Positions 26,708 to 63,324 of a DNA stretch of 64,000 nucleotides are shown here, piece by piece. Each line of letters opens with the position of its first letter. Position 1 is the first letter of the stretch. The notes under the pieces are model-generated. The model was not told the DNA's origin and did no database searches. It worked only from the letters and a program-made list of their open reading frames with translations. This DNA is from Croceicoccus marinus (GTDB lineage Bacteria; Pseudomonadota; Alphaproteobacteria; Sphingomonadales; Sphingomonadaceae): the NCBI RefSeq assembly GCF_001661675.2, contig NZ_CP019604.1, positions 186,001 to 250,000 of the forward strand, written 5' to 3'. A program made the position numbers and the translations under genes.

Positions 26708-26717
26708 GAATCCGCGG

Positions 26718-30504: not shown

Positions 30505-30549
30505 ATGACAGACACTCTCACGCCGGCCGAACGCAGCGAGCGCATGTGA
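30505..30549 (+). pseudogene. vsr: Very-short-patch repair endonuclease (vsr), 5' fragment
   Basis: Fourteen codons reading MTDTLTPAERSERM match the N-terminus of Vsr mismatch endonucleases. The frame then hits TGA exactly where an IS3 left end (TGAGGTGG...) begins. The rest of the gene is not found nearby. Vsr genes usually accompany a cytosine-5 methylase, and none is present here. Confidence 0.5.
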
Positions 30550-30609
30550 GGTGGTGCCGGTTTTCTGGACAGGAGGCTAAGCTATCCCGGACGTGAGGGA
30601 TGGACGACA

Positions 30610-30894: not shown

Positions 30895-31284
30895 GCGTCG
30901 AGCGGCGGCGGCAGATGATCGAGCGGGAGCATGCCAGCCTGTCGATTGCGGCGCAGTGCCGGCTGGTGTCGATCAGCCGGTCGTCGTTTTACTATGCGCC
31001 GATGCCGGAGGCGGCCGAGACGCTGGCGCTGATGGCGGTGATCGACGCCTCGTTCCTCGACCACCCCTGGTATGGCAGCCGCCAAATGGCGCGGCACCTG
31101 TGCCGCCTCGGCCATGCGGTCGGGCGTCGGCGGGTGCGACGGCTGATGGCGAAGATGGGGCTTGCGCCCATCTACCAGCGCCCACGGACGAGCGATCCGC
31201 ACCCGGAGCACCGGATCTACCCGTACCTGCTGCGCGATCTGGAGATCACCCGGCCGGGTCACGTCTGGTGCGCCGACATTACCT
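30891..31284 (+). pseudogene. IS3 family transposase OrfB, N-terminal part
   Basis: About 131 residues including the HTH_21 segment (HPWYGSRQMARHL, RRVRRLMAKMGL) and the start of the rve catalytic domain, HVWCADIT. It is cut right after the first catalytic Asp by an inserted IS5-type element. Remaining DDE residues are missing. Confidence 0.88.
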
Positions 31285-35780: not shown

Positions 35781-36815
35781 GTGTCACAGGTTACCACGAT
35801 TGGTCTGGATATCGCGAAGAACGTTTTTCATGCCCATGGCGCGGATGAGCGTGGAGCGATGGTTTTCAGTCGCAAACTGACCCGAGCCAAGTTGCTCGAC
35901 TTCTTTGCCAAGCAACCCACGTGTGTAGTCGCACTCGAGGCATGTGGCGGTGCGCATCACTGGGCACGCGAGTTAGCCGCGTTGGGGCACGACGCTCGAC
36001 TGATCCCGCCATCCTACGTGAAGCCGTTCGTGAAGCGGAACAAAAGCGATGCCTTGGATGCGGAAGCGATCTGCGAGGCAGCGCAGCGCCCCGGTATGCG
36101 CTATGTGGCGGTGAAGTGCGAGGAGCAACAGGCGGCCGGCCTCGTGTTCCGCACGCGCGATCTGATGGTTCGCCAGCGCACGCAGCTGATCAATGCGATC
36201 CGCGGTCATCTGAGCGAATATGGTTGGGTCGCTCCTCGCGGAACGGCGCACATGGCGATGTTGGCCGATCTTCTCGAAGAAGAGGCAATGGCCGCCACTC
36301 TTCCGCAAGCGGCGCGACCAATGTTCAAGCTGATGGTCGAGCACCTGAATGAACTCGAAAAGCGCGTCGCAGAGTTGGACCGCGAAATCGCCCGCCGTGC
36401 GAAGGAAGACGAAGATGCCCGGCGGCTCATGACCATTCCCGGTGTCGGTCCGATCGCGGCAACGGCAATTCTCGCGCTCGCACCGCCGATCGAGACTTTC
36501 CGCAAGAGCCGCGACTTCGCGGCATGGCTGGGTCTGACACCGCGCCAGCACTCAACCGGTGGTAAGCAACGCCTTGGCAGCATATCACGAATGGGCGAAC
36601 GGAGCATTCGACGACTGCTGATCATCGGCGGCAGCTCGATAGTTCGCCAGGCAAGACGCTTCGGGGCGCCGGAAGGTTCGTGGCTGGAACGCATGCTGGC
36701 TCGTAAGCCGCGCATGCTGGTCTCGGTGGCGCTTGCCAACAAAATGGCGCGCATGGTCTGGGCCCTGCTTACCAAGCGCGAAGATCATAGAGCTCCGGCG
36801 GCCCTCGCGGTGTAA
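35781..36815 (+). CDS. IS110 family transposase (DEDD recombinase)
   Basis: 344 residues from GTG 35781, which follows AGAGGAGG. The RuvC-like N-terminal domain has Asp in TIGLDIAKNVFHAHG, Glu in VVALEACGG and the Asp pair in KSDALDAEAICEA. The C-terminal Tnp (transposase_20) domain has MTIPGVGPIAATAIL and the Ser region RRLLIIGGSS. Apparently intact. Works with a guide RNA from the element's noncoding end. Confidence 0.93.
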   Translation: MSQVTTIGLDIAKNVFHAHGADERGAMVFSRKLTRAKLLDFFAKQPTCVVALEACGGAHHWARELAALGHDARLIPPSYVKPFVKRNKSDALDAEAICEAAQRPGMRYVAVKCEEQQAAGLVFRTRDLMVRQRTQLINAIRGHLSEYGWVAPRGTAHMAMLADLLEEEAMAATLPQAARPMFKLMVEHLNELEKRVAELDREIARRAKEDEDARRLMTIPGVGPIAATAILALAPPIETFRKSRDFAAWLGLTPRQHSTGGKQRLGSISRMGERSIRRLLIIGGSSIVRQARRFGAPEGSWLERMLARKPRMLVSVALANKMARMVWALLTKREDHRAPAALAV

Positions 36816-37063
36816 GTCGCGAACGGCAGCCAGAGGCGTCGGAGGACGTAGGCGATCGAAGGAGGGTATGGCACAACCGTCGGCGAGACGGGGCTGGAAG
36901 AACCAGAGAATGGCAGGGCGCTAGCCAAGCGCGCAAAGCTGAAATGGATCCAGTCCGCGAACTCCCATACTGGCCCGCAGCTATGGTGCTGCTCATCGAG
37001 GCCGGACAGATGACAGCATCCGACTACGTGCCAACATACCCGAATTTATTGCTTGCATCCCAT
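36816..37063 (+). ncRNA. Possible bridge/seek RNA region of the IS110-type element
   Basis: About 250 bases without a gene between the transposase stop and the right inverted repeat. IS1111-subgroup elements encode their target-guiding RNA in this position. Short stems are visible (for example GGCGCTAGCCAAGCGC near 36917) but I have not folded it. Presence is inferred from the family and layout. Confidence 0.35.
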
Positions 37064-37144
37064 GGGGCGTCCACAGATGACTTTCCGGATCGTCCGACAA
37101 TCACGCCATTCACTCTAGCCCTGGGGAGACCTGCTTGCCACACC

Positions 37145-37165
37145 CTGTAATGGAGAACGTTACAG
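37145..37165. promoter_or_regulatory. HigA operator O1
   Basis: CTGTAATG-GAGAA-CGTTACAG, a 21-base inverted repeat with one mismatch, 35 bases centre-to-centre from O2. Confidence 0.65.
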
Positions 37166-37179
37166 TCCCTTGACCAACT

Positions 37180-37200
37180 TTGTAATGCATGGCATTACAA
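37180..37200. promoter_or_regulatory. HigA operator O2 overlapping the higBA promoter
   Basis: TTGTAATGC-ATG-GCATTACAA, perfect 9-base arms, ending 5 bases before higB. A candidate -35 TTGACC at 37170-37175 lies 17 bases from CATTAC (37193-37198), so O2 covers the -10 region. This is typical of autorepression by the antitoxin. Confidence 0.72.
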
Positions 37201-37204
37201 CTCC

Positions 37205-37486
37205 TTGGAGATCGAAAGCATCGATCATAAGAACCTTCGCAAGTTTTTCACGAGCGGGAAGGCGAGGGGGCTCATGGAGGTGGAACGCCTGCGCAGGATG
37301 CTCGCGTTTATCGATGCCGCGGGTTCATTTGCCGAGTTAGGCATCCCGCCGAACTTCGGTTTCCATGCGCTGACAGGCGATCGCGATGGGCGGTTTGCAA
37401 TGACGGTGACGAAGAACTGGCGGCTCGTGTTCACCAAGGTTGACGAGACCACCATCGCCAATCTCGACTTGGAGGATTATCACTGA
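37205..37486 (+). CDS. higB: HigB-type RelE/ParE toxin
   Basis: 93-residue mRNA interferase toxin of the HigB family. N-terminus KNLRKFFTSGKARGL and FHALTGDRDGRFAMTVTKNWRLVF with the conserved NWR, ending LEDYH. The family N-terminus requires a start near 37205, where only TTG is available and no ribosome-binding site precedes it. With the promoter proposed at 37170-37198, the transcript would begin about at this TTG. Stop overlaps higA by one base. Confidence 0.88.
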   Translation: MEIESIDHKNLRKFFTSGKARGLMEVERLRRMLAFIDAAGSFAELGIPPNFGFHALTGDRDGRFAMTVTKNWRLVFTKVDETTIANLDLEDYH

Positions 37487-39798: not shown

Positions 39799-42763
39799 CA
39801 TCCCGACCGTTCCGATGGAGGCGGAGCGGCCTGAACCGCTCGCGGGGCTTGTCCATCTCGCTCCACAGATAGTCGCCAGTGAGGCCGATATGCTCCCAGC
39901 CCAATGGCGCGACATGGGCAAGCAGTTCGTCCAGCACCTCGACACCGCTGGCGCGCAAATGCCGGACGGCGCGGTCGAGATAGACGGTGTTCCAGAGCGT
40001 GACGGCCGCGGTGAGCAGGGTCAGGCCAGAGGCACGATGGCGCTGGTTCTCGAAGGTGCGGTCGCGCAGTTCGCCGAGGCGGTTGAAGAAGATGGCGCGG
40101 GCGAGCGCGTTGCGGGCCTCACCCTTGTTGAGGATGCTGCCGGTGCGACGCCGCTGTTCGGGATCGTCGAACCAGTCGAGCATGAACAGTGTGCGCTCAA
40201 TCCGCCCGATCTCACGCAGCGCGCGGGCGACGGGGTTTTGACGCGGGAAACCCGCCAGCTTGCGCAGCATGACCGAGGCACTGACGGTGCCGGCGCGGAT
40301 CGAGGCGGCGAGCCGCAGCGTCTCGTCCCAATCCTCTTCGATCGCGCGAACGTTGACCGGGCCCGCGACAAGTTGGCGCAGCGTCGGCCAAGGATCGAGC
40401 GACGACAGGCTATACAGGCGGCGTTCGTTGAGGTCGCGAATACGCGGTGCGAAGCGGAAGCCGAGCAGATGGCACAAGCCGAAGACATGATCGACCGCCC
40501 CGGCGGTATCGGTCGCATGTTCGCGGATCACCAGTTCACTCTCATGATCGAGCAGGCCGTCGAGGACATGCGCGGCCTCACCAGCATTGGCGGCTATGAC
40601 CTTGGTATGGAACGGCGTGAAGCGGTCGGTGACGTGGGTGTAGAACAGCACGCCGGGTTCGCTGCCGTAGCGGGCGTTGCGATCGGCGCGCGCCTCGCCC
40701 TGACCGCCGGCGCGGAAGAACTGCCCGTCCGAGGACGATGTGTCGCCCGGTCCCCAGACCTAGGCGAGCGGATGCGCGGTGTGGCAGTCTACGATCGCCG
40801 CCAGCGCCGACAGGTACGTTTCATCGCGCACATGCCATTCCGCAGTCCAGCGCAGGCGTGACAATGTCAGCCCACGCGAGCTTTCCGCCATGCGCCCGAG
40901 GCCGAGATTGGTCGCATCGGCGAGGATCGACCCCATCAGCGCGGACTGGTCAGAGGCCGGCTCGCCACTGCGGGCATGAACGAAACGGTCGGCAAAGCCC
41001 GACCACGCGGCGACCTCAACCAGCAGGTCCGTAATGCGGACACGCGGCAGCATCGCGTAGAGCCGGGCCTTCAGCGCCTCGGCATCGTCGGACGGAGATC
41101 GCCGGATCGGCGAGATCAACAACTGCCCGCGCTCGATCGTTACGTCGACCAGTTCGCCGGCCGCGGCTGCGCGCTCCACCTCGGTCATGCGCTGGGTCAG
41201 CATCGCGCGCCGTTCCTCATACCATTGAGAAAAACGGGACGGCACGGCGAGGCGCAGATCGCTATCGGTGCGCATCGTCTCAAAGGCGGGCACCGGCAGC
41301 AGGTAATCGTCCAGCGTGCGATAGGCGCGGCTGCCATCTACCCAGATGCTGCCTGATCCGAGCCGTTCGCGCAGGTGGACGATCACCGCGATCTCATAGG
41401 CGCGGCGGTCGATTGTCCCTTCGGCCGGCTGCACGACCTTGTGCCAGCGTGGCTTGATGAAGCTGGTCGGCACACGCTTCGGCAGGACCGATCGGCCGTC
41501 GCGGTACATCGTTCGCAGCGCCTCGATCGCGCCGAGCAGCGGATCGCCCGATCTCGCGGTCCGGAAGGTGAAGGCGGCGAGGAAGGTCGGGGCGAACCGC
41601 CGCACGGCAGGGTAGCGTTCGACCACTTCCTCCAGACCGTCATCGGCCGCACGCGTCAGATCCTCGGCGAAGCGGATGCTGCGTTCGAGCTGATCCCAGC
41701 CCACCCGGTCATCGATCGTGCGAAAGGCGTCGCGTCCGCTCGCGCGTGCATCGACCAGCAAGCGGCCGAGCCGGACATGAAAGCGCGCCGTGTCTTTCAG
41801 CATCCGTGCCTGCCCGAGCAGCCGGTCGGACCGGGTACGGTCGGCGCGGCGGAACAGCGCCCCCACCATCTTCTCGACCATGACCAAGGCGGCATCGGTC
41901 AGCGCCGCCTCCATCTCGATCATGGAGGCGACCAGCATCGCGAGTCGGCGCGGGCGTTCGAGACGCCGGAGGTGTTGCGCAGTGACGATGCCGGCGGTCC
42001 GGGCGATGACGGCATAGCGGGCGGCATGGATACGTCGTGCCCGATCGGTTGCGATCCCGATGCCGCGCACCGCGTCGAGCCGTTCGACGATCCCCTTCAG
42101 GTTCGACGCCGATGGCGCTTCCGGCCATTCGCGTAGCCATCCCAGACGGGTGCGACCATTGTCATCGGATGCGATCAGGCGTTCGAGTGCCGCTTCCTGA
42201 TCGGCCGAGCAATCGCGGATCAGTCCGGCATGGGCGGCCTTGCGTGCATGGGCCCGCACGATGAGGGCGAGCCGTTCCAGCGTCGATGCCGCAGGCAGAA
42301 CAATCCGGTCGAGCCGCAGGCGATTGACCATGCCGGCGACGATCGCCTCGCCCCGATCGGTCGAGGTGGCGATCTCTGATCCCAGTGCCAGCGTCGATCG
42401 TACGTCGATCCGGTCAAAGGCGCGCAGACCAAGATACGCTTCGATCTCGGCGCGATGCTCGCGCAGCGTCGTCGCACGGGCAGAATAGTCGGCGAAGTCG
42501 TCGATCCGGCAACCGATCTGGTCGGCGAGCAGCGACAGCATGAGGGCGGGCACTGCTTCACTCGGCAGCAGCGCACGCCCCGGATGACGCAGGTAGCAGA
42601 GCTGCACGGCATAGCCGAGCCGGTTCGCTCTGCGCCGACGACGCGCTACCTGCGCGAGGTCATCGGGGCCGAGAGTGAAGAGCCGCTCGATCGTCGCGCT
42701 GTCAGAAGGCGGATCGAAGATCACAGCGCGCTGCGCAGGCGATAATATTGTTCTGGACGGCAT
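39794..42763 (-). pseudogene. tnpA: Tn3 family transposase with in-frame amber codon
   Basis: Full-length Tn3 transposase frame of about 990 codons from ATG 42763 (AGGA upstream). One in-frame TAG at 40760-40762 lies in HPLA-stop-VWGPGD, immediately before the catalytic block SSSDGQFF. Everything else is open, and the downstream part [10 protein letters not shown] to the C-terminus is intact. A single C-to-T change would convert CAG (Gln) to TAG. Without suppression the product lacks the catalytic domain. Residues before the stop include the DUF4158 N-terminal domain (LSPAQRAVIFDPPSD). Confidence 0.92.
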
Positions 42764-42892
42764 CGGCTTCCTGTTTGTCACGCAACAGGGATGTGGCCCT
42801 GTTCATGGAGCATAGACGAGGAGACGGGTTATGTGACATTATGCAGATTGATCGACGGGCAATGCCGCTCCGTCACGCAGACGGACGTATAT
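42764..42892. promoter_or_regulatory. Probable res site and divergent tnpA/tnpR promoters
   Basis: 129-base gap between divergent tnpA and tnpR starts. Contains TATGTGACA twice (42832-42840 and 42889-42898 region) and TGTCACGCA/CGTCACGCA in the opposite sense at about 42778 and 42872. This is a set of inverted motifs as expected for resolvase subsites. Confidence 0.6.
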
Positions 42893-43534
42893 GTGACAAC
42901 GCAGCTCGGTTACGCGCGAGTGTCCAAGGCGGATGGCAGCCAGGTTCACGACCTTCAGCACGACGCGCTGGTCGCGGCCGGCGTCGATCCCGAGCATATC
43001 TATGAGGATGCCGCGTCGGGCCGGCTCGACAAGCGGCCGGGGCTGGATGCCTGCCTGAAGGCACTGCGCCGTGATGACACGCTGGTCATATGGAAGCTCG
43101 ACCGCCTCGGTCGCGACCTGCGCCACCTCGTTAACACAGTCGGCGACCTGACCAAGCGTGGCATCGGCCTCAAGGTGCTGGCCGGCGAAGGCGCGTCGAT
43201 CGACACCACCACCGCCAACGGTCGGTTGATCTTTGCGATTTTTGCCGGCCTCGCCGAGTTTGAGCGCGAGTTGATCGTCGAGCGCACCCGCGCCGGTCTG
43301 GAATCGGCACGTGCGCGCGGCCGACATGGCGGTCGCCCGTTCAAGATGACGCCCGCCAAACTGCGGCTTGCCCAGGCGGCTATGGGCAAACCCGAAACCA
43401 AGGTCGCCGAGCTGTGCGCCGAGCTGGGCATCACGCGTCAGACGCTCTACCGGCATGTTACGCCGAACGGAGAGATCAGGACGGACGGACAGAAGCTTCT
43501 CGCTCGAAAAGCGCGCCCATCGATCAAGGCATGA
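42893..43534 (+). CDS. tnpR: Serine recombinase / Tn3 resolvase
   Basis: 213 residues from GTG 42893, which begins VTTQLGYARVSKADG with the catalytic Ser in YARVS. Conserved WKLDRLGRDLRHL and FAGLAEFERELIVERTRAGL follow, then a C-terminal HTH (AELCAELGITRQTLYRHV). Resolves cointegrates at the adjacent res. Longer starts (ATG 42791) would cover the res site and are disfavoured. Stop overlaps the passenger gene by 4 bases. Confidence 0.92.
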   Translation: MTTQLGYARVSKADGSQVHDLQHDALVAAGVDPEHIYEDAASGRLDKRPGLDACLKALRRDDTLVIWKLDRLGRDLRHLVNTVGDLTKRGIGLKVLAGEGASIDTTTANGRLIFAIFAGLAEFERELIVERTRAGLESARARGRHGGRPFKMTPAKLRLAQAAMGKPETKVAELCAELGITRQTLYRHVTPNGEIRTDGQKLLARKARPSIKA

Positions 43535-44652
43535 CGAATTTGAACAATCTCACGTTCGTATTCATCGGAGGGGAGCATCAGGTCCTGCATCTCGCGCCGG
43601 TCGCCGCAGAACTTAGCCTGAGCCATCCGGATATCACGGTCCGCTGCATCTGCGCCGACGACCGCACCGCCGCCGCCTTGCGCGCAGTGGCTGCGGCGAT
43701 GAGAGCCAGCACGATGACCGTGACGCAGATCGCCTGGCCTTGGGCGGGCAGGATTGCAGCGCGCATAACGGGCAGCCGCTCGGCGGCGAAGGGGCCCCTG
43801 CTGGCGCGGATCCGATGGCAGGCCCGCAAGACCCAGGCCATCATCGTTCCCGAGCGCACCTCTGCGGCGTTGCGATGGCTCGGATGGAAGCGTCCGCTGG
43901 TACATTTCCGCCACGGCGCTGGCGACCGTGCACCATCCTCCGAAGCCAAGCAGAGAGCCTTCGATGCCATCTTCGTTCCCGGACAGAAAGACATCGAGCG
44001 TGCCGTCGCGCAAGGCCTCAGCCGTAAGCGGCTTTCGGCCGTGGGCTATATAAAGATCGACTATTTGCAGGCCTTGCCCACCGGACCGCAATTGTTCGAC
44101 AACGATCGCCCGACCGTCTTCTACAACCCTCATTTTGATCCTGCGCTGTCCTCGATCGGGATCGCTCGCGATGTCATCGCCCGTTTCCGCCAACAGGAGC
44201 GGTACAACTTGGTCTTCGCCCCTCATGTCCGCGCGTTCGAAAACCTCGATCCGATCGCGCGAGCGCGGTGGCTGGAACTTGCCGTGCCAGAGCACATCGC
44301 GGTCGATCTGGATTCTCCCAAGCTGTTCGACATGAGCTATGCGCGGGCCGCCGACATCTATCTGGGCGACATGTCGAGCCAGCTTTACGAATTCCTCGCT
44401 AAGCCGCGGCCCGTCGCTTTCGTGAATGCGCATGGCGCTAACTGGCAGGACGATCCAAGGTACGCTGGTTGGCATCTGGGAGAGGTCGCATCAGGTGCCG
44501 ACGATGTGCTTGCTGCAGTAGATCGAGCCTTCGAACGGCATCCCGACATGATCCAAAGACAGGCGAAAGCGACAGCGTTCGCGTTCGGCCGCTACGATGG
44601 CGCAATCAAACGGGCCTCATACCAACTGCTCCACACCCTGCAATCGCTCTGA
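43531..44652 (+). CDS. CDP-glycerol glycerophosphotransferase-like GT-B protein (transposon passenger)
   Basis: 373 residues. It starts MTNLNNLTFVFIGGEHQV, with LVHFRHGAGDRA (acceptor His region), GYIKIDYLQ, VFYNPHFDPALSS, FAPHVR and then YLGDMSSQLYEFLAKPRPVAFVN. These resemble the D-x-S-S-x-x-x-E pattern of TagF-like glycerophosphotransferases and related GT-B enzymes. Coupled to tnpR by ATGA and ending 3 bases before the right inverted repeat, so it is an integral part of the transposon. Could modify a surface glycan. Substrate unknown. Confidence 0.75.
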   Translation: MTNLNNLTFVFIGGEHQVLHLAPVAAELSLSHPDITVRCICADDRTAAALRAVAAAMRASTMTVTQIAWPWAGRIAARITGSRSAAKGPLLARIRWQARKTQAIIVPERTSAALRWLGWKRPLVHFRHGAGDRAPSSEAKQRAFDAIFVPGQKDIERAVAQGLSRKRLSAVGYIKIDYLQALPTGPQLFDNDRPTVFYNPHFDPALSSIGIARDVIARFRQQERYNLVFAPHVRAFENLDPIARARWLELAVPEHIAVDLDSPKLFDMSYARAADIYLGDMSSQLYEFLAKPRPVAFVNAHGANWQDDPRYAGWHLGEVASGADDVLAAVDRAFERHPDMIQRQAKATAFAFGRYDGAIKRASYQLLHTLQSL

Positions 44653-44655: not shown

Positions 44656-44693
44656 CTTAGCGTACGTTTTCGAACATTCTCTCACCGGACCCC
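44656..44693 (-). repeat. Tn3-family terminal inverted repeat, right
   Basis: 38 bp, reverse complement begins GGGGTCCGGTGAGAG and ends GTACGCTAAG. Pairs with 39761-39798. Confidence 0.92.
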
Positions 44694-45014
44694 AAGGACG
44701 TCGCCAAGCTGCTCACCACGCTCGGGGTCAAGCAGACGGCCGCGCTGCCGCCCGAACAGATCGCCGCTGCAGTCTTGGGCGGCGCCAGTGTTTCGTTGCA
44801 GCAGCCCTTCCCCTGCGAACTAAAGCGTTCACGTGCTAACACGTCCACACGTGTGGAAATCGTCGGAGCCCCGGCCAGCCAACTCCCTTGGCTCAAGTCC
44901 CTCGGCTGCTTCTCCGAGGTGATTTCGTACCGCACCCGAGTTTTCCTCCCTGTGGACCAGGTGCCGGACATCCTCGTGCGCCTGCTCGCCTCAACGGCGG
45001 CCGAAACGACCTGA
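44694..45014 (+). pseudogene. C-terminal remnant of a plasmid/ICE protein cut by the transposon
   Basis: Open frame from the transposon end to TGA 45014, reading KDVAKLLTTLGVKQTAALPP, then LPWLKSLGCFSEVISYRTRVFLP. No start codon before 44775 (TTG), so only a C-terminus remains. Family not recognised with certainty. It carries repeat cluster 1 inside its frame. It lies 75 bases upstream of the parB-like gene and was probably the preceding operon member. Confidence 0.6.
44826..44856. repeat. ACGTG repeat cluster 1
   Basis: GTTCACGTG, AACACGTCC and the palindrome CCACACGTGTGG in 31 bases, inside the reading frame of the upstream remnant. The reverse strand shares CACGTGAACG and CACACGTGTG with cluster 2. 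Confidence 0.7.
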
Positions 45015-45089
45015 AGAGAAAGGGAAGGAGGACCGGAGAAGGTGTCCGGCGAGGATTTCGCCGGTCCATTCCTACCAGGAGACCTTGTC

Positions 45090-47171
45090 ATGAACCAGAT
45101 GATCCCGCTGGCGAAGCTCCGGCTTTCGCCCATCAACGTCCGCACCGTGTCGGACGAAAAGCTCAACATTCCCTCCATGGCTGCCGACATCGCGGCGCGC
45201 GGCGTCCTGCAGAACCTGCTCGCCACGCCAGTCAAGAAGCCGCGCGGCAGCTTCGAGGTGTTCGACGGCGGACGGCGGCTTCGTGCGCTGAACCTGCTCG
45301 CCGAACAAGGCACGATCGACGCCGCGACCTTCGAGGTTCCGGTGCTCGTCGTGAAAGCCGAGGACGCCGAACTTAGCGAGACCTCGCTTGCCGCCAACTT
45401 CCACCAGCTCAAGCTCACGCCCGCCGAGGAATGCCGCGCCTTCCAGCACTTCCTGGGAGTCGACGGAGACATCGACGCGGTGGCCAAGCGGTTTGGGCAG
45501 ACTCGGCGGTTCATTGAGGGACGCCTGCGCCTCGCCGGGCTCGCAGACCCCGTGTTCGAGGCCCTCGCCAAGGGCGACATAACCCTCGACATGGCGAAGG
45601 CCTACGCATCGACCGACGATCACACCAAACAGGTGCGGATCTTCGAACAGTACGGCCACTACAGCTACACCACGCCCGACCAAATTCGACGGTCGATCGC
45701 CGGCGACGCGCTGAAGGCGAGCGATCCGATCGCAATCCTCGTGGGCGAAGACGCCTATGTCGCCGCCGGCGGCAGCGTCGAGCGCGAGCTGTTCAGCGAG
45801 GACGGTGACCGTTGGGCGGACCCCGAGATCGCGCGCGAGCTCGCCGGCAAGCTGATGGAAGCCGAAGCCCAGCGCCTCGGCGAGGAAACCGGGCTTGCCT
45901 GGATCCGTCCGATCGCCAGCTCGCATATCTACAACGCGACCGCCGATCTTCACCGGGTCAGTCTCCCCACTGTCCCGTTTACCGACGAGGAGCAGCAGCG
46001 GATCGACACCATCGCCGAGCGTATGGACGAGATCGCCGGGCAGATCGACAGCGGCCAGGTCGAGGACGAGGCGGCCGCCACCCTCGAGGACGAGTACCGC
46101 ACGCTCGACGCCGAGTACGACGAGCTCAACGATCGGCCCACGATCCTGCCCGACGACCTGAAGGCACAGGTCGGCACCTTCCTCATCCTCGCACCCGACG
46201 GCTCGATGAAGCTGGAAACCAGCTACTTCAGCGAGACGCCGATCCGCAGCGAGGACGACGATCAGGGCTCGACCGGAGGCGCGATCAAGAGCAACGGCTC
46301 GCCGACGGAACCGGAGGCGACCGCTCCCGGCGGCAAGCCGTTGAGCGCGCGTCTTTCGGACGAACTGGCGATGCAGCGGCGCGATATTCTCGCGGCCTCG
46401 ATCCTCGCCAACCCCGCCCTCGCCCTCGATTACGCTCTGTTCGCAATGATCGACGGGAACCGCGGCTACGATCGCTACGGCACGACGATGAAGGCATCGC
46501 GCCCACAGGATCCGGCACTCGGCAGCGAGATGGAGCCCACCCAGGCCCGCATCGCGATCGAACAGGCACGCGAAGCGCTCGATGCGAGATGGACCGAGGC
46601 CGGTGACGTGACCGCGCGTTTCGAGGCGTTCCGCACCCTCGACGACGAGGCCAAGGCGGCCTGGCTCGCGCTGATGGTGGCGGGCTCGCTCGAGGCCAAG
46701 CCCGAGTATTCGGCGACGACCAACCCGCTGCACGCGCGGCTCGCGTCGATCCTCGAAATCGACGTCGCGCAATGGTGGCGGCCGACTTCGGCGAACTTCT
46801 TCGACCGCGTCGCCAAGGGCGCCCTGCTCGCGCTGCTCACCGAGATCGGCGGCACGACGCTCGCGGCGCGCTACAGCGCTTCGAAGAAAGGGGACGTATC
46901 CTCGGCCTGCGAAAAGCTCTTCGCTGGCGAGGCAATCACCGAAACCGACACCAAGGAAGCGGCCCTTGCATGGGTGCCCGACGCGATGCGCTTCGACGTC
47001 GAACGCCCCGCCCTCGAAGACTCGCCCGACGACAAGGATGACGACGAAACGGGTGTCGACAAGGACGACGAGGGTCTCGATCCCGACGACGATCCTGCCG
47101 ACGACTTCGGTGACGACGTCAACGACTTCGACGTCGAGCATCCCGAAGAAGCCCTCGAACCCGCCGAATAG
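45090..47171 (+). CDS. ParB/RepB/Spo0J-type partition-like protein, large
   Basis: 693 residues from ATG 45090 (AGGAGA upstream). N-terminal ParB/Srx nuclease-like domain (IPLAKLRLSPINVRTVSDEK, GGRRLRALNLLAEQG, SLAANFHQLKLTPAEECRAF), then the HTH-like KRFGQTRRFIEGRLRLAGL. A long C-terminal extension (about 400 residues) ends in a strongly acidic Asp-rich tail. Large ParB-like proteins of this form are typical of alphaproteobacterial plasmids and ICEs next to ardC. They need not act in classical partition. No ParA is in the window. Confidence 0.88.
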   Translation: MNQMIPLAKLRLSPINVRTVSDEKLNIPSMAADIAARGVLQNLLATPVKKPRGSFEVFDGGRRLRALNLLAEQGTIDAATFEVPVLVVKAEDAELSETSLAANFHQLKLTPAEECRAFQHFLGVDGDIDAVAKRFGQTRRFIEGRLRLAGLADPVFEALAKGDITLDMAKAYASTDDHTKQVRIFEQYGHYSYTTPDQIRRSIAGDALKASDPIAILVGEDAYVAAGGSVERELFSEDGDRWADPEIARELAGKLMEAEAQRLGEETGLAWIRPIASSHIYNATADLHRVSLPTVPFTDEEQQRIDTIAERMDEIAGQIDSGQVEDEAAATLEDEYRTLDAEYDELNDRPTILPDDLKAQVGTFLILAPDGSMKLETSYFSETPIRSEDDDQGSTGGAIKSNGSPTEPEATAPGGKPLSARLSDELAMQRRDILAASILANPALALDYALFAMIDGNRGYDRYGTTMKASRPQDPALGSEMEPTQARIAIEQAREALDARWTEAGDVTARFEAFRTLDDEAKAAWLALMVAGSLEAKPEYSATTNPLHARLASILEIDVAQWWRPTSANFFDRVAKGALLALLTEIGGTTLAARYSASKKGDVSSACEKLFAGEAITETDTKEAALAWVPDAMRFDVERPALEDSPDDKDDDETGVDKDDEGLDPDDDPADDFGDDVNDFDVEHPEEALEPAE

Positions 47172-47244
47172 CGGCCCCTCGCCTGTCTCCTGGGCGACAC
47201 TCGCGGCAGCCGGTTGCGATCGGCTGCCGCTTTCTTGTCACCAT

Positions 47245-47280
47245 TCAACACGTTCACGTGTTCACACGTGTGCATGTTGC
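47245..47280. repeat. ACGTG repeat cluster 2
   Basis: Between parB-like gene and ardC. Contains CACGTGTTCACACGTG at 47255-47270, the exact reverse complement of 48198-48213. Its reverse strand also has GTGAACGTGTTGA, found again at 49144-49156. Confidence 0.75.
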
Positions 47281-47301
47281 ATTCAGCCGAAAGGTTCCAT
47301 C

Positions 47302-48297
47302 ATGCGCAAGCATTCCCGCGCCCCTCGCCCGCGCCGCGACATCGCCAACGAGATCACCGCCCTTATTCTTTCTAAACTCGAAACCGGCGTTCTGCCCTGG
47401 GCACGCCCGTGGGACCGTTCTGGCGGTGGCGGGCGCCCGCTGCGCCATTGCGGCACCCCCTATACCGGGATCAACACCCTGTTCCTGTGGGCTATGGCCG
47501 ATGCGTGCGGCTTCAATAGCCGGTACTGGATGACGTATCGCCAAGCCCATGCCATGGGCGCGCAGGTCCGCAAGGGCGAAACATCCTCGCTCAGCGTCTA
47601 CTACTCGCAGATCAGCAAGACCGACACCGACAAGGTCACCGGCGAGGAGCACAACCGCAGCATCCGCTTCCTGAAGGCTTACAACGTCTTCAACGCCGAC
47701 CAGGTCGACGGCTTGCCGACGCATTACTACCCGGAGCTTGTTCCGCCGGAGCCCCGGCAGGAATCACAACACCGCGAAGCGATCGACGGCTTCTTCGCCA
47801 ACCTTCCGGTCGAGGTCCGGCACGGTGGCAACGCCGCCTATTTCTCACCTGTCGGCGATTACATCCAGATGCCCGAGCGCGGCGCGTTTCATTCGGACGA
47901 CCTCTACGCAAGCACCCGCGCGCACGAGTCGATTCACTGGTCAGGCGGGGCAGGGCGGCTCGAGCGCAAATTCGGCAAGCGCTTCGGTGATGCCGCCTAC
48001 GCCTTCGAGGAACTCGTGGCCTCGATCGGCCAATGCCTCGTTTGCGCCGACCTGGGTCTACCCGCAGAGCTGCACGACAACCACGCCAGTTATATCGACC
48101 ATTGGCTGAAGATCCTGAAGGGTGACGCGAGCGCGATCATCCACGCCGCCTCTAAGGCGGAACAGGCTTTCGGTTATCTCAAGAGTTTCAGCACGTCCAC
48201 GTGTGAACACGTGGGCAGGTTCAGAACCGTGTCCGACGCAGGCGGCGACGCAATCGGAACCGACGGGGTGCGCGAGACGGTCGACCTGGCCGCGTGA
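47302..48297 (+). CDS. ardC: ArdC-type antirestriction protein
   Basis: 331 residues from ATG 47302. N-terminal ssDNA-binding ArdC domain (LETGVLPWARPWD, YTGINTLFLW, FNSRYWMTYRQA) and C-terminal zincin-like metallopeptidase domain with HESIHW and EELVASIGQ. ArdC proteins shield incoming conjugative DNA from host restriction. The C-terminus contains repeat cluster 3, read as STSTCEHVGR, an odd insertion in an otherwise normal end. Preceded by repeat cluster 2 in the gap after parB-like. Confidence 0.93.
   Translation: MRKHSRAPRPRRDIANEITALILSKLETGVLPWARPWDRSGGGGRPLRHCGTPYTGINTLFLWAMADACGFNSRYWMTYRQAHAMGAQVRKGETSSLSVYYSQISKTDTDKVTGEEHNRSIRFLKAYNVFNADQVDGLPTHYYPELVPPEPRQESQHREAIDGFFANLPVEVRHGGNAAYFSPVGDYIQMPERGAFHSDDLYASTRAHESIHWSGGAGRLERKFGKRFGDAAYAFEELVASIGQCLVCADLGLPAELHDNHASYIDHWLKILKGDASAIIHAASKAEQAFGYLKSFSTSTCEHVGRFRTVSDAGGDAIGTDGVRETVDLAA
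48191..48216. repeat. ACGTG repeat cluster 3
   Basis: GCACGTC-CACGTGTGAACACGTG-GGC inside the 3' end of ardC. The 16-base core at 48198-48213 is identical, in inverse orientation, to cluster 2. Confidence 0.75.
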
Positions 48298-48360
48298 TGG
48301 CACGACCGGCGCGAAAGGGGAGGGGGAGGGGAAGTGGCACCTTTCCAAGGGAGATACGCC

Positions 48361-49026
48361 ATGCCTCCGATCCCCGCTTACGATCTCGCGTTCCGCTTCG
48401 AACGGGCGCTGCAGCCCGACGCACTGCGGATCGTCACCACATGCGCGCGCGCCGTCAACGAGGCGATGGACGACGCTCATCTCGCAGGCCTCTACCCCGG
48501 AACCGATCCCGCCGTCCTGCTTCTAGCCCGGCACATGGGGCGGATCGCCGCCGGTGACGATCCCGAAGCCAGGCACCCCCAGGACGCGGTGCTTCGCGCA
48601 TCCTGCATGGAACGGATCAGACAACTGCGCTCGGCCGATGTTCTCGTGCCGCTGGTGCGCCGCGGCGTCGGACACGATCCGCATCTCGTCCGCGTCTACA
48701 AGGACGCCGCCCGATCGCGGCTACGTGCCTTGGCGCATGAACTCGGGTTCTACGGCGAGACCTACGATCTGCGCAGCCTCGCAGCGGGATCGGCGCCGCC
48801 GCCGCGCTTCGAGCTGGCCACCGACCGCTTTCGCCTGCAGCTCGATCCCGACCGGATGATGCCCGGTCGCGAGGTCACCTACATGCGCGCCGAACAGCGG
48901 CAGGGAGGATGGACCGGCTCGCTCACGCGCGTGGAGATCGGCGTCCTCGGCGACATCGCCAAGTTCGCCCGCACCCTTCGCCGCGAGCTGCATCTCGCGG
49001 CGCCCGCCCCAACCACCGCACTGTGA
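48361..49026 (+). CDS. Hypothetical protein of the ParB/ArdC module
   Basis: 221 residues from ATG 48361, which follows AAGGGAGA. Mostly helical with many Arg and Ala (RIVTTCARAVNEAMDDAHLAG, LVPLVRRGVGHDPHLV). No domain recognised. Colinear with ardC and the next gene, with short gaps, so part of the same plasmid/ICE operon. Confidence 0.7.
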   Translation: MPPIPAYDLAFRFERALQPDALRIVTTCARAVNEAMDDAHLAGLYPGTDPAVLLLARHMGRIAAGDDPEARHPQDAVLRASCMERIRQLRSADVLVPLVRRGVGHDPHLVRVYKDAARSRLRALAHELGFYGETYDLRSLAAGSAPPPRFELATDRFRLQLDPDRMMPGREVTYMRAEQRQGGWTGSLTRVEIGVLGDIAKFARTLRRELHLAAPAPTTAL

Positions 49027-49040
49027 AGAAAGGACCCATC

Positions 49041-49703
49041 ATGGGATGGCTCTCCATGCCGTTGTCGAGCATGTACCCGCACTCGACACCGAAGGCGTAT
49101 CTCGACGCCCAATTCACCTACGAACACGTTTATAGTCCAACAGGTGAACGTGTTGACACGTTAAAAACAGCACCCACGCTGCCCGATGGCCACCAACGGC
49201 GGGGCTTGCGGGTGCTGGCATCGTCCTGCCTGCACAACAAGGTGTATTATGCGGCGGTTGTGCCGATAACCGACGGGATCGCGGGCACGGCTTTCGCCGT
49301 CGTCTGCCTCGTCCGCTGGACCCCGCGCGCGAAGGATGGTTACGTCTTCGCCTTCAAGGACATGGATGAAACCGCCCGTCCTTACGAGGACGATTGTCCC
49401 GAGCGGATCCTCACGCTGCTCGGAGAGACCGACGACCCTGCCGCGCTCAATTGGCGCAGGCGCTGCATCCGCAATCTGGCCCGTGCGACACGCAAGCTCG
49501 AGGACGGAATGCGAATCCGCTTCGCGTCACCGATCAGGTTCGTCGACGGGCATGAAGGGACGGACTTCGTCATCCGCAAACAAGGCCGCCGCACCGCTCT
49601 CGCGCTGACCGATAGCGGGCCCGCGCGATACCGAGTCAGCAACCTTGCCAAGATGACGTTCTCGATCGTGCCCCAGACCAAGGTTCACGCCACGCAGTTC
49701 TAG
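49041..49703 (+). CDS. Conserved plasmid/ICE hypothetical protein (DUF6927-like)
   Basis: 220 residues from ATG 49041 (AAAGGA upstream). It begins MGWLSMPLSSMYPHSTPKAY, reminiscent of a conserved family found with ArdC in alphaproteobacterial mobile elements (DUF6927 by memory, not verified). The segment EHVYSPTGERVDTLKTA is encoded by repeat cluster 4 and looks like an insertion in the N-terminal part. Function unknown. Confidence 0.7.
   Translation: MGWLSMPLSSMYPHSTPKAYLDAQFTYEHVYSPTGERVDTLKTAPTLPDGHQRRGLRVLASSCLHNKVYYAAVVPITDGIAGTAFAVVCLVRWTPRAKDGYVFAFKDMDETARPYEDDCPERILTLLGETDDPAALNWRRRCIRNLARATRKLEDGMRIRFASPIRFVDGHEGTDFVIRKQGRRTALALTDSGPARYRVSNLAKMTFSIVPQTKVHATQF
49121..49168. repeat. 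ACGTG repeat cluster 4
   Basis: GAACACGTT, then GTGAACGTGTTGACACGTT inside the coding sequence of the DUF6927-like gene. GTGAACGTGTTGA at 49144-49156 matches the reverse strand of cluster 2 over 13 bases. Confidence 0.7.
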
Positions 49704-49729
49704 CGCGCCCGAATGCAACATGGCAGACC

Positions 49730-49960
49730 ATGAACAAGAAAGACCCGACCATGACCGACCCCCTCGCGGCTTCCGCCAACCTCAGCCCGAAACGGCATGA
49801 CCTGTGCAGCCGCACGCATGCGCAGCGGCTCGCAGGACGGCTGATGGACCAACTCGGCCGCCCAATGGCGGTTATTCACACCGGCAATCCGCTTCAACCC
49901 TTTCGCGTCGGCAAGTGCGACGGTGCGGAGGGCAGGGTGGTGGTCGAGGTTCGCTCGTGA
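49730..49960 (+). CDS. Small hypothetical protein
   Basis: 76 residues (MNKKDPTMTDPLAASANLSP start; an ATG at 49751 is also possible). Ends VGKCDGAEGRVVVEVRS. Its TGA overlaps the GTG start of the nuclease gene, supporting an operon. No domain recognised. Confidence 0.55.
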   Translation: MNKKDPTMTDPLAASANLSPKRHDLCSRTHAQRLAGRLMDQLGRPMAVIHTGNPLQPFRVGKCDGAEGRVVVEVRS

Positions 49961-49990
49961 ACGTGTGCACGCTCTCACTTGTTATCACAT
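49956..49990. repeat. ACGTG repeat cluster 5
   Basis: CGTGAACGTGTGCACG followed by TCACTTGTTATCAC over the start codon of the nuclease gene. CGTGAACGTGT matches cluster 2 (reverse strand) over 11 bases. Weakest of the five. Confidence 0.6.
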
Positions 49991-50397
49991 TGGCTGCATG
50001 CGCACCGCCGCCGCTCCCGCCGGAAGAAGCGCTGGCCGACTGCAGCGTCTCCGACGGTGACACGATCCGCTGCGGCGAGGAGCGCATACGGCTTCTCGGC
50101 ATCGACGCACCCGAGCTTCCCGGACACTGCCGGCCCGGGCGCGCCTGTGCGCCCGGAGATCCGTCCACAAGCGCAGACAGTCTCAGCTCCGCCATGACGG
50201 GACGCCTCGCCATCCGTCGCTTCGGAAAGGATCGCTACGGGCGCACGCTCGCGATGGTTTCAGCCGATGGCACGGACCTTTCCTGTCACCAGCTGAGCGC
50301 AGGGCAGGCGCTTTATCGTTCCGATTGGGACGATCTCTCGGCCATCATGCGCATCTGCCCCGACGCCATCACGGCGTCGCCCGATCTCATTCGGTGA
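49957..50397 (+). CDS. Thermonuclease (SNase) family lipoprotein
   Basis: 146 residues from GTG 49957. The N-terminus VNVCTLSLVITLAACAPP is a short lipoprotein signal with lipobox LAAC. The staphylococcal-nuclease-like fold follows: VSDGDTIRCGEERIRLLGIDAPELP with the metal Asp and catalytic Arg, then DRYGRTLAMV with the second conserved Arg/Gly. Extra cysteines suggest disulfides in the periplasm. SNase-like proteins occur on conjugative plasmids (ParB/YncB type). A role during DNA transfer or entry is inferred. Confidence 0.85.
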   Translation: MNVCTLSLVITLAACAPPPLPPEEALADCSVSDGDTIRCGEERIRLLGIDAPELPGHCRPGRACAPGDPSTSADSLSSAMTGRLAIRRFGKDRYGRTLAMVSADGTDLSCHQLSAGQALYRSDWDDLSAIMRICPDAITASPDLIR

Positions 50398-54367: not shown

Positions 54368-54475
54368 TTGGGTCTTCCTATTGCGACGAGCGATGATATG
54401 TAAACTTATTCGTTTCATTTTGGGCGCATGTCAAAGTCTGATTCGCGCCGAACCATTTTCAGACCCAAATTCTTC

Positions 54476-55516
54476 ATGCTGCGCATATTCGTTTCGCTAA
54501 TTTTCGCATGCCTTGTTGCAGGTTGCGACGATGCTCCCATTCCGGAGGAGGCCGATCGGCGTCCGGTCAAACTCTACACCGTGGCGGCAGGCGGTCAGGC
54601 GAGGACTTACGAGTTTCCCGCGATCATCGAGGCAAGCACATCTTCGGATCTAACCTTCGATGTGCCGGGCAAGATCGTCCGGCTGACGGTGGACCAGGGC
54701 GATTTCGTCAGGGCCGGCACGGTGATCGCGCAGCTCGACCAGACCATCGCGCGCAACCAGCTCGTCCAGGCACGCGAACAGTACGAGGCGGCACAGGATG
54801 CATTCCGCCGCGCCGACGCGCTGGTCGGCGAAGGCGCGATTCCGCGGGCAGTGCACGTTCAGCGCGAAACGCAGCGCGACACTGCGCGAGCCGAACTTGA
54901 CAATGCGCGCGAGCAGTTGGAGAAGACCGTCTTGCGGGCGCCCTTTTCGGGCCGCGTGGCCAGGCGACTGACCGAGCCGTTCGAATATGTTTCGCCGCAG
55001 CAGCCGGTCGTGACCTTACAGACCGCCGGTTCCGCCAAGGTGGTGGTCCAGGTTCCCTCGTCCATCGTTGCCAATGCCGAGCAGCGGGCCCCGATCAACG
55101 CGGCGATCGCGCTCGACAGTCTTCCCGACAGGCGGTTCGCGGCCCGGTTCGGCTCGTTCGCCACCGACGCCACGCGTCAGTCGCTCACCTACGAGGCGAC
55201 GTTCCTGTTCGATCCGCCTTCCGGCGCGCTGATCCTGCCGGGCATGACGGGAACACTGCATGTCGAGCTCGATACCGATGATGCCGAGATGCCGGCTGTG
55301 CCACTGGAAGCGATCGTTGGGCGTGACGAAAAGACATTCGTCTGGCGCGTGGACCGCAGGACCGGAGCCATCGCGCTGCGCCGCGTCACCGTAGGCAAGG
55401 GAGCAGGCGGAATGCTGCCTGTAACTGCCGGCATCGGCCGCGGAGACCTGATAGTGGCTGCTGGCGTGGCCAATCTCGAAGAGGGGATGAAAGTCCGCCC
55501 CTACGAGCGGGACTGA
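54476..55516 (+). CDS. RND efflux periplasmic adaptor (membrane fusion) lipoprotein
   Basis: 346 residues from ATG 54476, giving signal MLRIFVSLIFACLVAGC with lipobox LVAGC. An ATG at 54428 adds 16 charged residues. HlyD-type adaptor: barrel-sandwich hybrid halves around VPGKIVRLTVDQGDFVRAG and VLRAPFSGRVARRL, coiled-coil hairpin between (QLVQAREQYEAAQDAFRRAD), then a beta-barrel. First gene of the MFP-RND-OMF operon. No local TetR or MarR regulator is present, so control lies elsewhere. Confidence 0.92.
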   Translation: MLRIFVSLIFACLVAGCDDAPIPEEADRRPVKLYTVAAGGQARTYEFPAIIEASTSSDLTFDVPGKIVRLTVDQGDFVRAGTVIAQLDQTIARNQLVQAREQYEAAQDAFRRADALVGEGAIPRAVHVQRETQRDTARAELDNAREQLEKTVLRAPFSGRVARRLTEPFEYVSPQQPVVTLQTAGSAKVVVQVPSSIVANAEQRAPINAAIALDSLPDRRFAARFGSFATDATRQSLTYEATFLFDPPSGALILPGMTGTLHVELDTDDAEMPAVPLEAIVGRDEKTFVWRVDRRTGAIALRRVTVGKGAGGMLPVTAGIGRGDLIVAAGVANLEEGMKVRPYERD

Positions 55517-55519
55517 GCC

Positions 55520-58500
55520 ATGTCGTTTAATCCCGCCGTCTTCTCGATCAGGAATCGCCTGCTCATCCTGCTCGTCATCATCGGGACGATCGTTGCCGGG
55601 ATGGCGGCCTATGGGTCGCTGCCGCGCTTCGAGGATCCCGAGTTCACCATCCGCCGCGCTGTCGTGGTAACACCCTATCCTGGCGGATCGCCGATGGAGG
55701 TCGCCACCGAGGTCACCCAGCGTCTCGAGCGGGAGATCGGGCAGATGCAGGAGGTGAAGGAGATTGTTTCGACCTCCGAGGCGGGCCAGTCGCGCATCGA
55801 GGTGGAGATCAAGTACGAGTTCGGGCGCAACAAGGAACAGCTCCAGATCGTCTGGACCAAGCTGCGCAACCGCGTGGCCGATGCCGCCCGGCTGCTTCCG
55901 CCCGGGGCAGGTCCCTCGATCGTCAACGACGATTTCGGCGACGTCTTCGGCATCTTCTACATGCTAACCGCCGATGGTTATTCGCCGGCCGAGCTGTACG
56001 ACTATGCCGAAAAGCTGCGCACCGACCTGAGCGGTGTGGAGGGTGTGGGCAAGGTGGTGCTGTCGGGCGAGCAACGCGAGGCCTTCTATGTCGAGATCAT
56101 GCGCGAGCGGGTCGCGGCGCTGGGGCTGTCGGTGCAGAGCGTCTATCAGGATCTAGCACAGCAGAATTCCGTCGTCGCAGCGGGCAGCGTGCGCGTCGGC
56201 GACCAGCGTCTGGAGATCGTTCCCACCGGCGAGATCGATTCGGTCGAGGAATTGCGCGATCTGCCGGTGATGACCGGCCAGGAAGGCGCGGTCGTGAGAC
56301 TGGGCGATCTGGCCCGCGTGACGCGCGGCTATGTCGATCCGCCGATGCAGATCCTGCGCTACAATGGCAGGCCGGCGGTGGGCATGGGCATCTCGAATGC
56401 GACCGGCACAAATGTGGTCGAGGTCGGCGAGGCGATCGAAGCCAAGCTGCGCGCGAGCGAGAGCGACCGCCCGATCGGCATCGAGATCCACGAATTCTAC
56501 CACCAGGGCAAGGTGGTGTCGGACGCGATCGGCGATTTCGTGATCAATGTCGCGACGGCGCTCGTCATCGTGGTGGTCACGCTGCTGATCTTCATGGGCT
56601 GGCGCTCGGCCGTGGTCATCGGCGCCGTGCTCATGCTCACCGTCGCGGCGACGCTGGCTGGGATGAATGCCGGCGGGATACCGATGCACCGCATCTCGCT
56701 GGGCGCGCTGATCATCGCGCTGGGAATGATGGTGGACAACGCCATCGTCGTGGTCGAGGGGATGCTCGTCGGCCTCAAGCAGGGCAAAAACAGGCTGGAG
56801 GCGGCGCGCGCGATCGTGGGCCAGATGCTGTGGCCGCTACTAGGAGGCACGCTGGTCGGCATCATCGCCTTCGCCCCGATCGGCCTCGCCCCCGGGCAGG
56901 TCGCCGAATACACCAATCACCTGTTCTGGGTGGTGATGATCTCGCTCTTGTTCTCGTGGTTCTTCGCGGTCACCGTAGCGCCTTTTCTCGCCAACTGGCT
57001 GTTCGAGAAGGAGGAGGATGCTGCCGCTTCCGGCACTGATCGGGAGACAGGATTCGATGCAGGCCACGACGGTCTCGAGGACGAGGCCGCCCCGCAGCGC
57101 GAAGCCGGCCGGATCGGCACCGCCTATCGCGAATGGCTCGCGCGCGCGCTGCGCCATCGCTGGCGTACCATGGGCCTGACCGGGGGGTTGTTCGCCGTCT
57201 CCCTTGTGGGCTTCGCGTTCGTGGAACAGGGTTTCTTTCCCGCCTCCACCACGCCGCATTTGATGGTCGATTACTGGCTGCCTGCGGGCACCGATATCGA
57301 GCGGACCAATGCCGACCTGGAGGAGATTGAGGAGGATCTGGCGACGATGGACGGCGTTACTGACGTTCAGACCGTGGTCGGCATGGGTACCTTGCGTTAC
57401 AAGCTGGTCTATCAGCCCGAGGCGCCGACATCCTCCTTCGGCCAGATGATCCTGCGGGTTGAGGACGCCTCGACGCTCGAGCGGCTGCAGGCAGATGTGC
57501 ATGCCTATTTGCAAAAGAACGCCCCCGAAGCGCGCGCCAAGGTCTGGCTGTTCGAACTGGGGCCGGGTGGCGGCTCGAAGATCGAGGCGCAGTTTTCGGG
57601 GCCCGATCCGGCGGTTCTGCAGAGCCTGGCGCAGCAGGCCAAGGATGTCTTCGCCGAGGACGAAGCGGCCATCCTCGTGAAGGATGACTGGCGCGAGCAG
57701 GTGCCGGTCATCCACCCGCTCTATTCCGAAACGCGCGCGCGTCGCCTTGGCGTCAGCCGCGAGGACGTGGCCGAGGCCTTGCAGGGCACGTTCGCGGGCC
57801 GTCCGATAGGCGTCTTCCGCGAGGGCGACGACCTGATCCCGATCATCGCCCGCTCGCCCGAAAGCGAAACGCGCGACGCGCAGAACATGGAAGCAATCCA
57901 GGTGTTCAGCGCCAGCGGCGCCTCGCTTCCGCTGCAGGAAGTGATCGACGGTTTCGAGACCCGCTGGCGTCATTCGCAGATTCAGCGGATCGATCAGCGC
58001 TGGGCAATCAACGCCCAGGCCGATCCCGCGCCGGGCGAAACCGCCAACCGTCTGCTCGATCGCGTGCGCGGAGACGTCGAGGCGATCGAACTGCCTTCCA
58101 GCTACCATTTCGAATGGGACGGCCAGGAAGGAACGAGCACCGAGGCGATCGATTCGCTGATTGGCGTGGTCCCGCTCGGTGTCATCGGCATGGTGCTGGT
58201 GGTAATCGTGCTGTTCAACGCAGTGCGCCAGCCGGTGATCATTTTCATGATCGTGCCGCTGGCGATCATCGGCGTAACCATCGGCCTGCTCATCACCGGC
58301 ATAGCGATGGAGTTCATCGCCATTCTCGGTGTGCTCTCGCTCTCGGGCCTGCTGATCAAGAACGCGATCGTGCTGGTCGATCAGATGGATATCGAGATCG
58401 GCGAGGGCAAACCGCGTTTCGATGCCATCATTGAGGCAGCCTATGATCGCGCCCGCCCGGTCATCCTGAGTTCGCTGACGACGGTACTCGGCGTCATCCC

Positions 58501-63303: not shown

Positions 63304-63324
63304 ATACCATCTGGGCGCGGCGAC

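Follow-up and report, generated by a model that had tools for sequence, protein, structure and literature searches.

Tandem 8-bp ACRYGT arrays in a ParB/ArdC module of Croceicoccus marinus as likely recognition sites of a ParA-partner ribbon-helix-helix protein

The methionine repressor MetJ is a chromosomal protein whose ribbon-helix-helix (RHH) dimers step 8 bp at a time along tandem met boxes (box AGACGTCT), without the involvement of a ParA. A step of exactly 8 bp is also what we find in five clusters of short repeats that lie in a ParB/ArdC module of Croceicoccus marinus, within a stretch of 64,000 nucleotides (contig NZ_CP019604.1, positions 186,001 to 250,000) that we call the window. 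We think it likely that these clusters are recognition arrays, of the parS or operator type, for an RHH protein that is the partner of a ParA in a type Ib-like plasmid partition system, and that in the window they belong to an orphan fragment of a plasmid backbone. MetJ is alike in the 8-bp stepping of an RHH protein, and unlike in being chromosomal and lacking a ParA.

Among plasmids, RK2 carries many dispersed operators for KorB, a helix-turn-helix (HTH) CTPase clamp of the ParB type that recognises a 13-bp palindrome. KorB resembles the protein proposed here in being a partition-type DNA-binding protein which silences plasmid genes at a distance (PMC11790492); the difference is that we propose an RHH protein and arrays with an 8-bp step. 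The type Ib system ParF/ParG of TP228 is similar in having an RHH protein, a ParA, repeats upstream of the par operon and a binding protein that is also a repressor. On the other hand, TP228 has one continuous centromere and operator before the operon, and its description (PMC5016525) includes no dispersed arrays. A type Ib par locus of Paracoccus has three 13-bp repeats before parA (PMC3832669).

By analogy, the nearest worked example for the mechanism of the arrays is the delta/omega system of pSM19035, as set out in PMC9499535. The omega protein has six parS sites, each made of 7-10 heptads (7-bp WATCACW), over the promoters of three genes, and at least 4 contiguous repeats are needed for full stimulation of ParA. 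The likeness lies in a small RHH centromere-binding protein together with a ParA, in several arrays of short tandem repeats that are found in both orientations over the promoters of several genes, and in the cooperativity of neighbouring dimers. The arrays described here differ in their 8-bp ACRYGT repeat, in having mostly 3-4 contiguous units where they lie away from the par locus, and in the many sites found in coding sequence.

The preliminary description of the module had reported five clusters of ACGTGT-type half-sites. These are real, but their tandem form had been missed: all five are tandem repeats of the hexamer ACRYGT (mostly ACACGT or ACGTGT) with an exact period of 8 bp, with 3-4 contiguous units each, some of them imperfect. 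Array 1 (44823..44852; AAGCGT tc ACGTGC ta ACACGT cc ACACGT) lies in the frame of a strawberry-notch remnant and is found at the same place in two related modules, namely L008 on plasmid plas2 of Croceicoccus marinus OT19 and L021 on contig CANMTU010000002.1 of an uncultured Erythrobacter, where the second unit reads ACGTGT. Array 2 (47248..47277; ACACGT tc ACGTGT tc ACACGT gt GCATGT) ends 25 bp upstream of the ardC start codon, and array 3 (48191..48220; GCACGT cc ACGTGT ga ACACGT gg GCAGGT) is in the 3' tail of ardC. Array 4 (49124..49161; ACACGT tt ATAGTC ca ACAGGT ga ACGTGT tg ACACGT), the second unit of which is a misfit, is in the 5' part of the DUF6927 gene and contains 22 bp identical to plas2. 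Array 5, the weakest (49953..49982; GCTCGT ga ACGTGT gc ACGCTC tc ACTTGT), spans the start codon of a nuclease gene, again at the same place in L008 and L021. The shared words listed earlier are present as well: CACGTGTGAACACGTG is identical in clusters 2 (47255-47270, reverse strand) and 3 (48198-48213, forward strand), GTGAACGTGTTGA is common to clusters 2 and 4 (about 47245 and 49144), and a direct reading of the sequence shows that clusters 2 and 5 share CGTGAACGTGT and that cluster 1 contains CCACACGTGTGG. Clusters 3 and 4 had rightly been placed within reading frames (ardC and the DUF6927 gene), while it had been overlooked that cluster 1 lies in a reading frame too.

With a three-unit score of at least 15/18, period 8 returns exactly the five clusters from the 5.8-kb module. 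Periods 6, 7, 9, 11 and 12 return no site there, which for period 7 means no omega-type 7-bp repeat, and period 10 returns one, inside cluster 1. At a score of at least 16/18 the 64-kb window contains 4 sites (clusters 1-4), compared with a mean of 0.07 and a maximum of 1 in 60 runs of a Markov-1 null. The four-unit scores of clusters 1-5 are 23, 22, 21, 19 and 19 of 24, and the maxima of 100 shuffles were 17 (29 times), 18 (50), 19 (16) and 20 (5); on this score clusters 4 and 5 are unremarkable, since 21 of the 100 shuffles reach 19 or 20. Cluster 5 scores 15/18 on three units and draws its support from its conserved place in two relatives. Allowing at most 3 mismatches, CACGTGTGAACACGTG has 7 matches versus 0.45 expected, and none of 100 shuffles reaches 7. 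Word counts and mismatch-word searches over the window module and ten homologs (L008-L017) were swamped by G+C-rich words.

The frequency of the motif in the rest of the genome (4.1 Mb in three contigs, with the window on the 346,204-bp contig C3) had been suggested as a check, and the outcome speaks for the clusters: the three-unit pattern with at most 2 mismatches has 8 forward places, 7 in the module and 1 on C1. Three mismatches are at the level of noise, with 20 forward places genome-wide versus 28 for the backwards control. The exact core ACGTGTTNACACGT gives 3 matches in the window's genome, and the family sample, with 396 further genomes, contains no other. Furthermore, among 60 genomes of the genus of L021 the pattern with at most 1 mismatch occurs only in L021's own genome.

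The exact 8-bp step of small palindrome-like boxes suggested an RHH protein as the binder, and this prediction was made from the array DNA before the parA-RHH operon of plas2 was discovered. In that operon parA (36360-37034) is directly followed by the RHH gene (37034-37315), just upstream of the toprim, strawberry-notch, ParB-like and ardC genes. The ParA (224 residues) matches NF041546 with 183.1 bits (cut-off 180), which is a partition-ATPase match, and the RHH protein (93 residues, WP_185886215.1) matches PF20605 with 72 bits (cut-off 27.2). A near-perfect array starts 5 bp past the RHH gene. A comparison of the RHH family with solved structures by sequence gave nothing convincing (best E 0.03, a COP9 subunit; RHH chains at E 0.5-0.7). 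In the literature, at the level of titles and abstract openings, we were not able to find a description of the RHH family or of ACRYGT period-8 arrays, which is weak evidence of absence.

The RHH search gave 99 plasmid records, plas2 included. We fetched 16 other records, one of which (L108) has no adjacent parA; together with plas2 this makes 16 loci, 15 of them readable upstream (L117 begins at parA). All 8 loci with the ribbon KKA[IV][AS]AYF (plas2, L104-L107, L116, L118 and L120) have ACRYGT period-8 arrays before parA that score 15-17/18. In the seven other than plas2 the scores are 16-17/18, where L104, L105 and L116 are nearly identical before parA and not independent. The autocorrelation of the 90 bp before parA in seven loci (plas2, L104, L106, L107, L109-L111) is raised at lags 8, 16 and 24 (z 6.8, 5.8 and 3.7, each reached by 0 of 2000 controls) and mildly raised at lags 14 and 22 (44 and 33 of 2000 controls). 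This period-8 signal extends to loci with a different unit, and the Nostoc and Acetobacter loci have the same 8-bp step with different units. In whole records the three-unit pattern with at most 2 mismatches is present in 8 of 8 plasmids with the above ribbon (for W16, 12 matches versus 3 in the control) and in 3 of the 7 plasmids searched with other ribbons (W07 one place, W22 one, W23 four); none was found in W08, W17, W19 and W21, and the Nostoc record lay outside this search.

Some of these loci have a second RHH gene after the parA-RHH pair (L104 3386-3577, L105 3327-3518, L116 1767-2018, L118 1492-1749), and in pSY3 there is another array just behind. A different second RHH gene, which plas2 shares with the L021 contig and the window, was weighed as the array binder and rejected: in the DNA of plas2 and the window its upstream repeats look unlike the ACRYGT arrays, and no ACRYGT array lies near it in any of the three.

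To see how far the arrays are dispersed we scanned the whole of plas2 (130,419 bp), the L021 contig (129,780 bp) and C3. Beyond the five of the module, plas2 has arrays on both sides of the parA-RHH pair (36326 before parA, 37320 after the RHH gene), at the start of traH (16998) and within genes 24185-24625 (24509), 54432-55724 (54613) and 63125-63628 (63429). Equivalents of the traH, 24185 and 63125 sites exist in the L021 contig, and C3 has only the module's five arrays. In 20 shuffles, null scores rose to at most 20.2 in plas2, 16.6 in the L021 contig and 18.8 in C3 (mean maxima 12.9, 11.8 and 14.2). Below the null maximum are plas2 36326 (16.6), 47492 (17.6) and 63429 (18.1) and C3 235961 (16.2), which rest on orthology or position; the low scores at plas2 9063 and L021 contig 124111 were excluded from use.

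In total, eight array places are orthologous between plas2 and the L021 contig, over about 46 kb, and some of them are inside conjugation and anti-restriction genes. For the plas2 arrays at 36326, 37320 and 54613 the L021 contig yields no equivalent; it lacks the parA-RHH segment, which accounts for the first two. Between the two sequences the flanks of the eight places differ at 17.4% of positions (669/3850), and within the arrays we count differences at 15/116 positions of AC..GT, 13/58 of RY and 11/42 of the spacers. The best three-unit scores over the eight places sum to 131 in plas2 and 133 in the L021 contig. If the plas2 sites are mutated at local rates, a sum of 115.1 +/- 3.7 is expected, and 133 was reached in 0 of 3000 runs: the arrays have kept their form despite the divergence. 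Note that the sites were picked by scanning both sequences, so there is some ascertainment bias. In a comparison of the window with L021, 7/160 array positions and 205/5238 other positions differ; no constraint is visible in these two lineages, both of which lack the proposed binding protein, though the numbers are small.

The dispersal of arrays is not unique to plas2, yet it is widest there among the plasmids compared. Plasmid pSAMIE_4 has one additional array, some 1.1 kb ahead of parA. Further arrays on the 22-kb plasmid of Sphingomonas sp. AP4-R1 are found at 2902, where the neighbouring genes converge, and at 6905, upstream of an ArsR-family gene. S. hankookensis pSZ.B2R2_2 (W23, NZ_CP117027.1) has period-8 arrays with the unit ACNNGTCG at 41321, 43438, 49223 and 65340; these span 24 kb, and one immediately precedes parA. 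In NBWT7, pA46BH3 and pSY3, whose ParA-partner RHH protein is WP_046766318.1, the matches are at the par locus, including the 3' end of parA. A comparison of the plas2 transfer region with the plasmid collection gave 2 records with a query coverage of 80% or more, plas2 and one other.

Since homologous parA-RHH operons of other sphingomonad plasmids carry the arrays, and since the four of these plasmids that were checked have no ParB-like gene, we read the arrays as parS or operator sites and not as sites of the ParB-like protein. The 8-bp-step arrays are real and conserved, they are scattered over the backbone of a conjugative plasmid family, and the protein that they serve is most likely a partition RHH protein of type Ib-like kind. 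One RHH dimer would sit on each 8-bp step (ACRYGT + 2), with cooperative binding between adjacent dimers. The source plasmid family has arrays at the parA-RHH operon and at many places of the backbone, in conjugation, anti-restriction and other genes. In these plasmids the most probable role of the RHH protein is a double one, to tag the plasmid for segregation by ParA and to repress or adjust genes close by, and we infer that the arrays may double as centromere copies and operators. The window's plasmid retains only a piece of this backbone, severed next to a Tn3 element, and the arrays there would be bound only if another plasmid brings such an RHH protein.

Several observations weigh against this reading. 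Two of the three array-bearing module carriers (the window and L021) have no recognisable cognate RHH gene, although the L021 genome may be incomplete. The plas2 array ending 12 bp before parA is weak (15/18, with a scan score of 16.6 where 20 shuffles reach up to 20.2), and lag 8 is not raised before parA in plas2 taken alone. Seven loci with other ribbons score 11-16, and ribbon and unit are not one-to-one. Finally, an array with 3-4 contiguous units would be a poor activator of ParA if the rule for omega (PMC9499535) applied to it. By this yardstick many of the dispersed arrays might be bound and still stimulate ParA little, and a regulatory role would then be favoured for them.

Potentially, the arrays could be operators only, by which the RHH protein or another plasmid regulator represses backbone genes with no role in segregation. 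Most dispersed arrays consist of only 3-4 contiguous units, and the array midpoints in plas2 are nearer to start codons than random points (median 102 bp vs 248 bp, P = 0.027). The gene table behind this test was typed by hand, with one start shifted by homology, and we take the placement near start codons as a suggestion only. On the other hand, the RHH family adjoins a ParA that passes the partition-ATPase cut-off, and in the AP4-R1 plasmid one array has convergent genes on its two sides. We regard the operator-only explanation as rather unlikely.

The preliminary description had argued for a DNA-level role of the repeats and had put the module's own 693-residue ParB-like protein forward as a possible binder. 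While a centromere-like or regulator-site role is supported, the ParB-like protein is not, and the ParA-partner RHH protein is the better candidate. It is true that the arrays surround the ParB-like gene, that the protein has a ParB HTH domain and that the gene is found in all three array-bearing modules. However, of 13 homologous modules (L008-L017 and L021-L023), all of which carry the ParB-like gene, 11 have no arrays, including a 75-76% identical clade (L009, L022, L023); L012 and L015, also among the eleven, are almost the same module. The two modules with arrays are L008 and L021, whose ParB-like proteins are 91% and 97% identical to that of the window, and all five clusters occupy the same places in both. 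The absence of the repeats from homologous modules, which had been named as evidence against the family, is thus what we see in the distant modules and not in the two closest relatives. Whole-record searches of W02, G398, G399 and W09-W15 found no arrays either (the L015 record was not included whole). Conversely, nothing homologous to residues 1-394 of the ParB-like protein is present in W03-W07, and four of these plasmids (W03-W06) carry arrays at the par locus; W08 has a homolog. This homolog test covered W03-W08, with the array-bearing W16, W18 and W20 outside it. Together with the reach of the plas2 arrays far from the gene, these results make it quite improbable that the ParB-like protein binds the clusters as its parS sites. 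The ParB-like gene had no match in viral contigs.

In the 75% clade we also examined the five corresponding places for a diverged form of the motif and were not able to find anything convincing. Between ardC and the next gene, the members of this clade (L009 6594-7870; also L022 and L023) have a ParA-like gene, a 124-residue partner and a field of short-step GCAAGC/TTGCGC-like repeats. This is perhaps a different par system within the same module.

A functionless mobile short palindromic repeat that spread through the module would explain why arrays occur in both orientations and in coding as well as noncoding DNA. It would also fit array 4, which lies in a DUF6927 loop that is longer than in 9 of 10 aligned homologs (L009, one of the nine, is intermediate); array 3 is in the variable ArdC tail. 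Array 1, however, arose within conserved codons by base changes and no insertion: the 75% clade has a near-identical peptide (KRSRVNGSPR vs KRSRVNTSTR) spelled with other codons and no array. Moreover, the places are kept in relatives, and with at most 2 mismatches there are no copies in the genome outside the module except the one place on C1, so a mobile repeat is very unlikely. A chance clustering of CACGTG-like words, which cluster 5 by itself would permit, is refuted for clusters 1-4 by the shuffle and Markov-1 nulls and by places conserved in two relatives, and we give it almost no credence.

In the window, the module begins with the 3' remnant (117 codons; 44661..45014, forward strand) of the strawberry-notch gene, which at full length encodes 1417 residues in L021. 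It is followed, all on the forward strand, by the genes for the ParB-like protein (693 residues, 45090..47171; HTH_ParB 31 bits, above the cut-off, and ParB_N 19.6 bits, below it), an ArdC-like anti-restriction protein (331 residues, 47302..48297; ArdcN and MPTase-PolyVal), a 221-residue protein with no Pfam match (48361..49026), the DUF6927 protein with array 4 (220 residues, 49041..49703) and an SNase-like nuclease (146 residues, 49957..50397), whose GTG start is inside array 5. The module adjoins Tn3-family genes (40760..44652), three open reading frames with 100% amino acid identity to plas2 83858-88716. The Tn3 transposase frame has 673 residues in the window and 995 in plas2, and the transposase is probably truncated in the window. 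Rfam gave no matches in the window.

The genome of the window has no match to PF20605 and none to a nine-sequence RHH profile at E <= 1. The only match of C3 to the plas2 ParA sits in a 406-codon frame, and none of the listed plas2 open reading frames at 15554-32409 (transfer genes) matched in C3 under the settings used. The L021 genome has no PF20605 match either, and the nine-sequence profile gives one match there, at E 0.42. With no recognisable cognate RHH gene and a module fragment beside a Tn3 element, the arrays of the window look orphaned, and they are most likely relics that lost their binding protein. Elsewhere in the window (22580-23110), there is an RHH gene (98 residues, 22798-23094) whose product is 60% identical to the one beside the plas2 coupling-protein gene, with GATATC-like repeats upstream. 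This is possibly a stranded piece of a transfer-origin region, stranded because no plas2 coupling-protein or relaxase reading frame matched C3.

A wider idea, about which our doubts somewhat outweigh our confidence, is that in F-type conjugative plasmids of Erythrobacteraceae the RHH partition protein is a plasmid-wide organiser. It would act through about ten 8-bp-step arrays over about 46 kb, many of them in codons of transfer, anti-restriction and other backbone genes, as a dispersed centromere and global repressor, that is, as an RHH counterpart of KorB. Orphan arrays on other replicons could then tie these replicons to incoming plasmids that bring the protein, or make them incompatible with such plasmids. 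If our reading of the arrays is right, type Ib partition sites would not be confined to one centromere by parA, but would be dispersed and conserved through the backbone, even in coding sequence. Segregation would be linked to the control of conjugation and anti-restriction genes, and both incompatibility and past membership in a plasmid family would be readable from DNA alone (ACRYGT, period 8).

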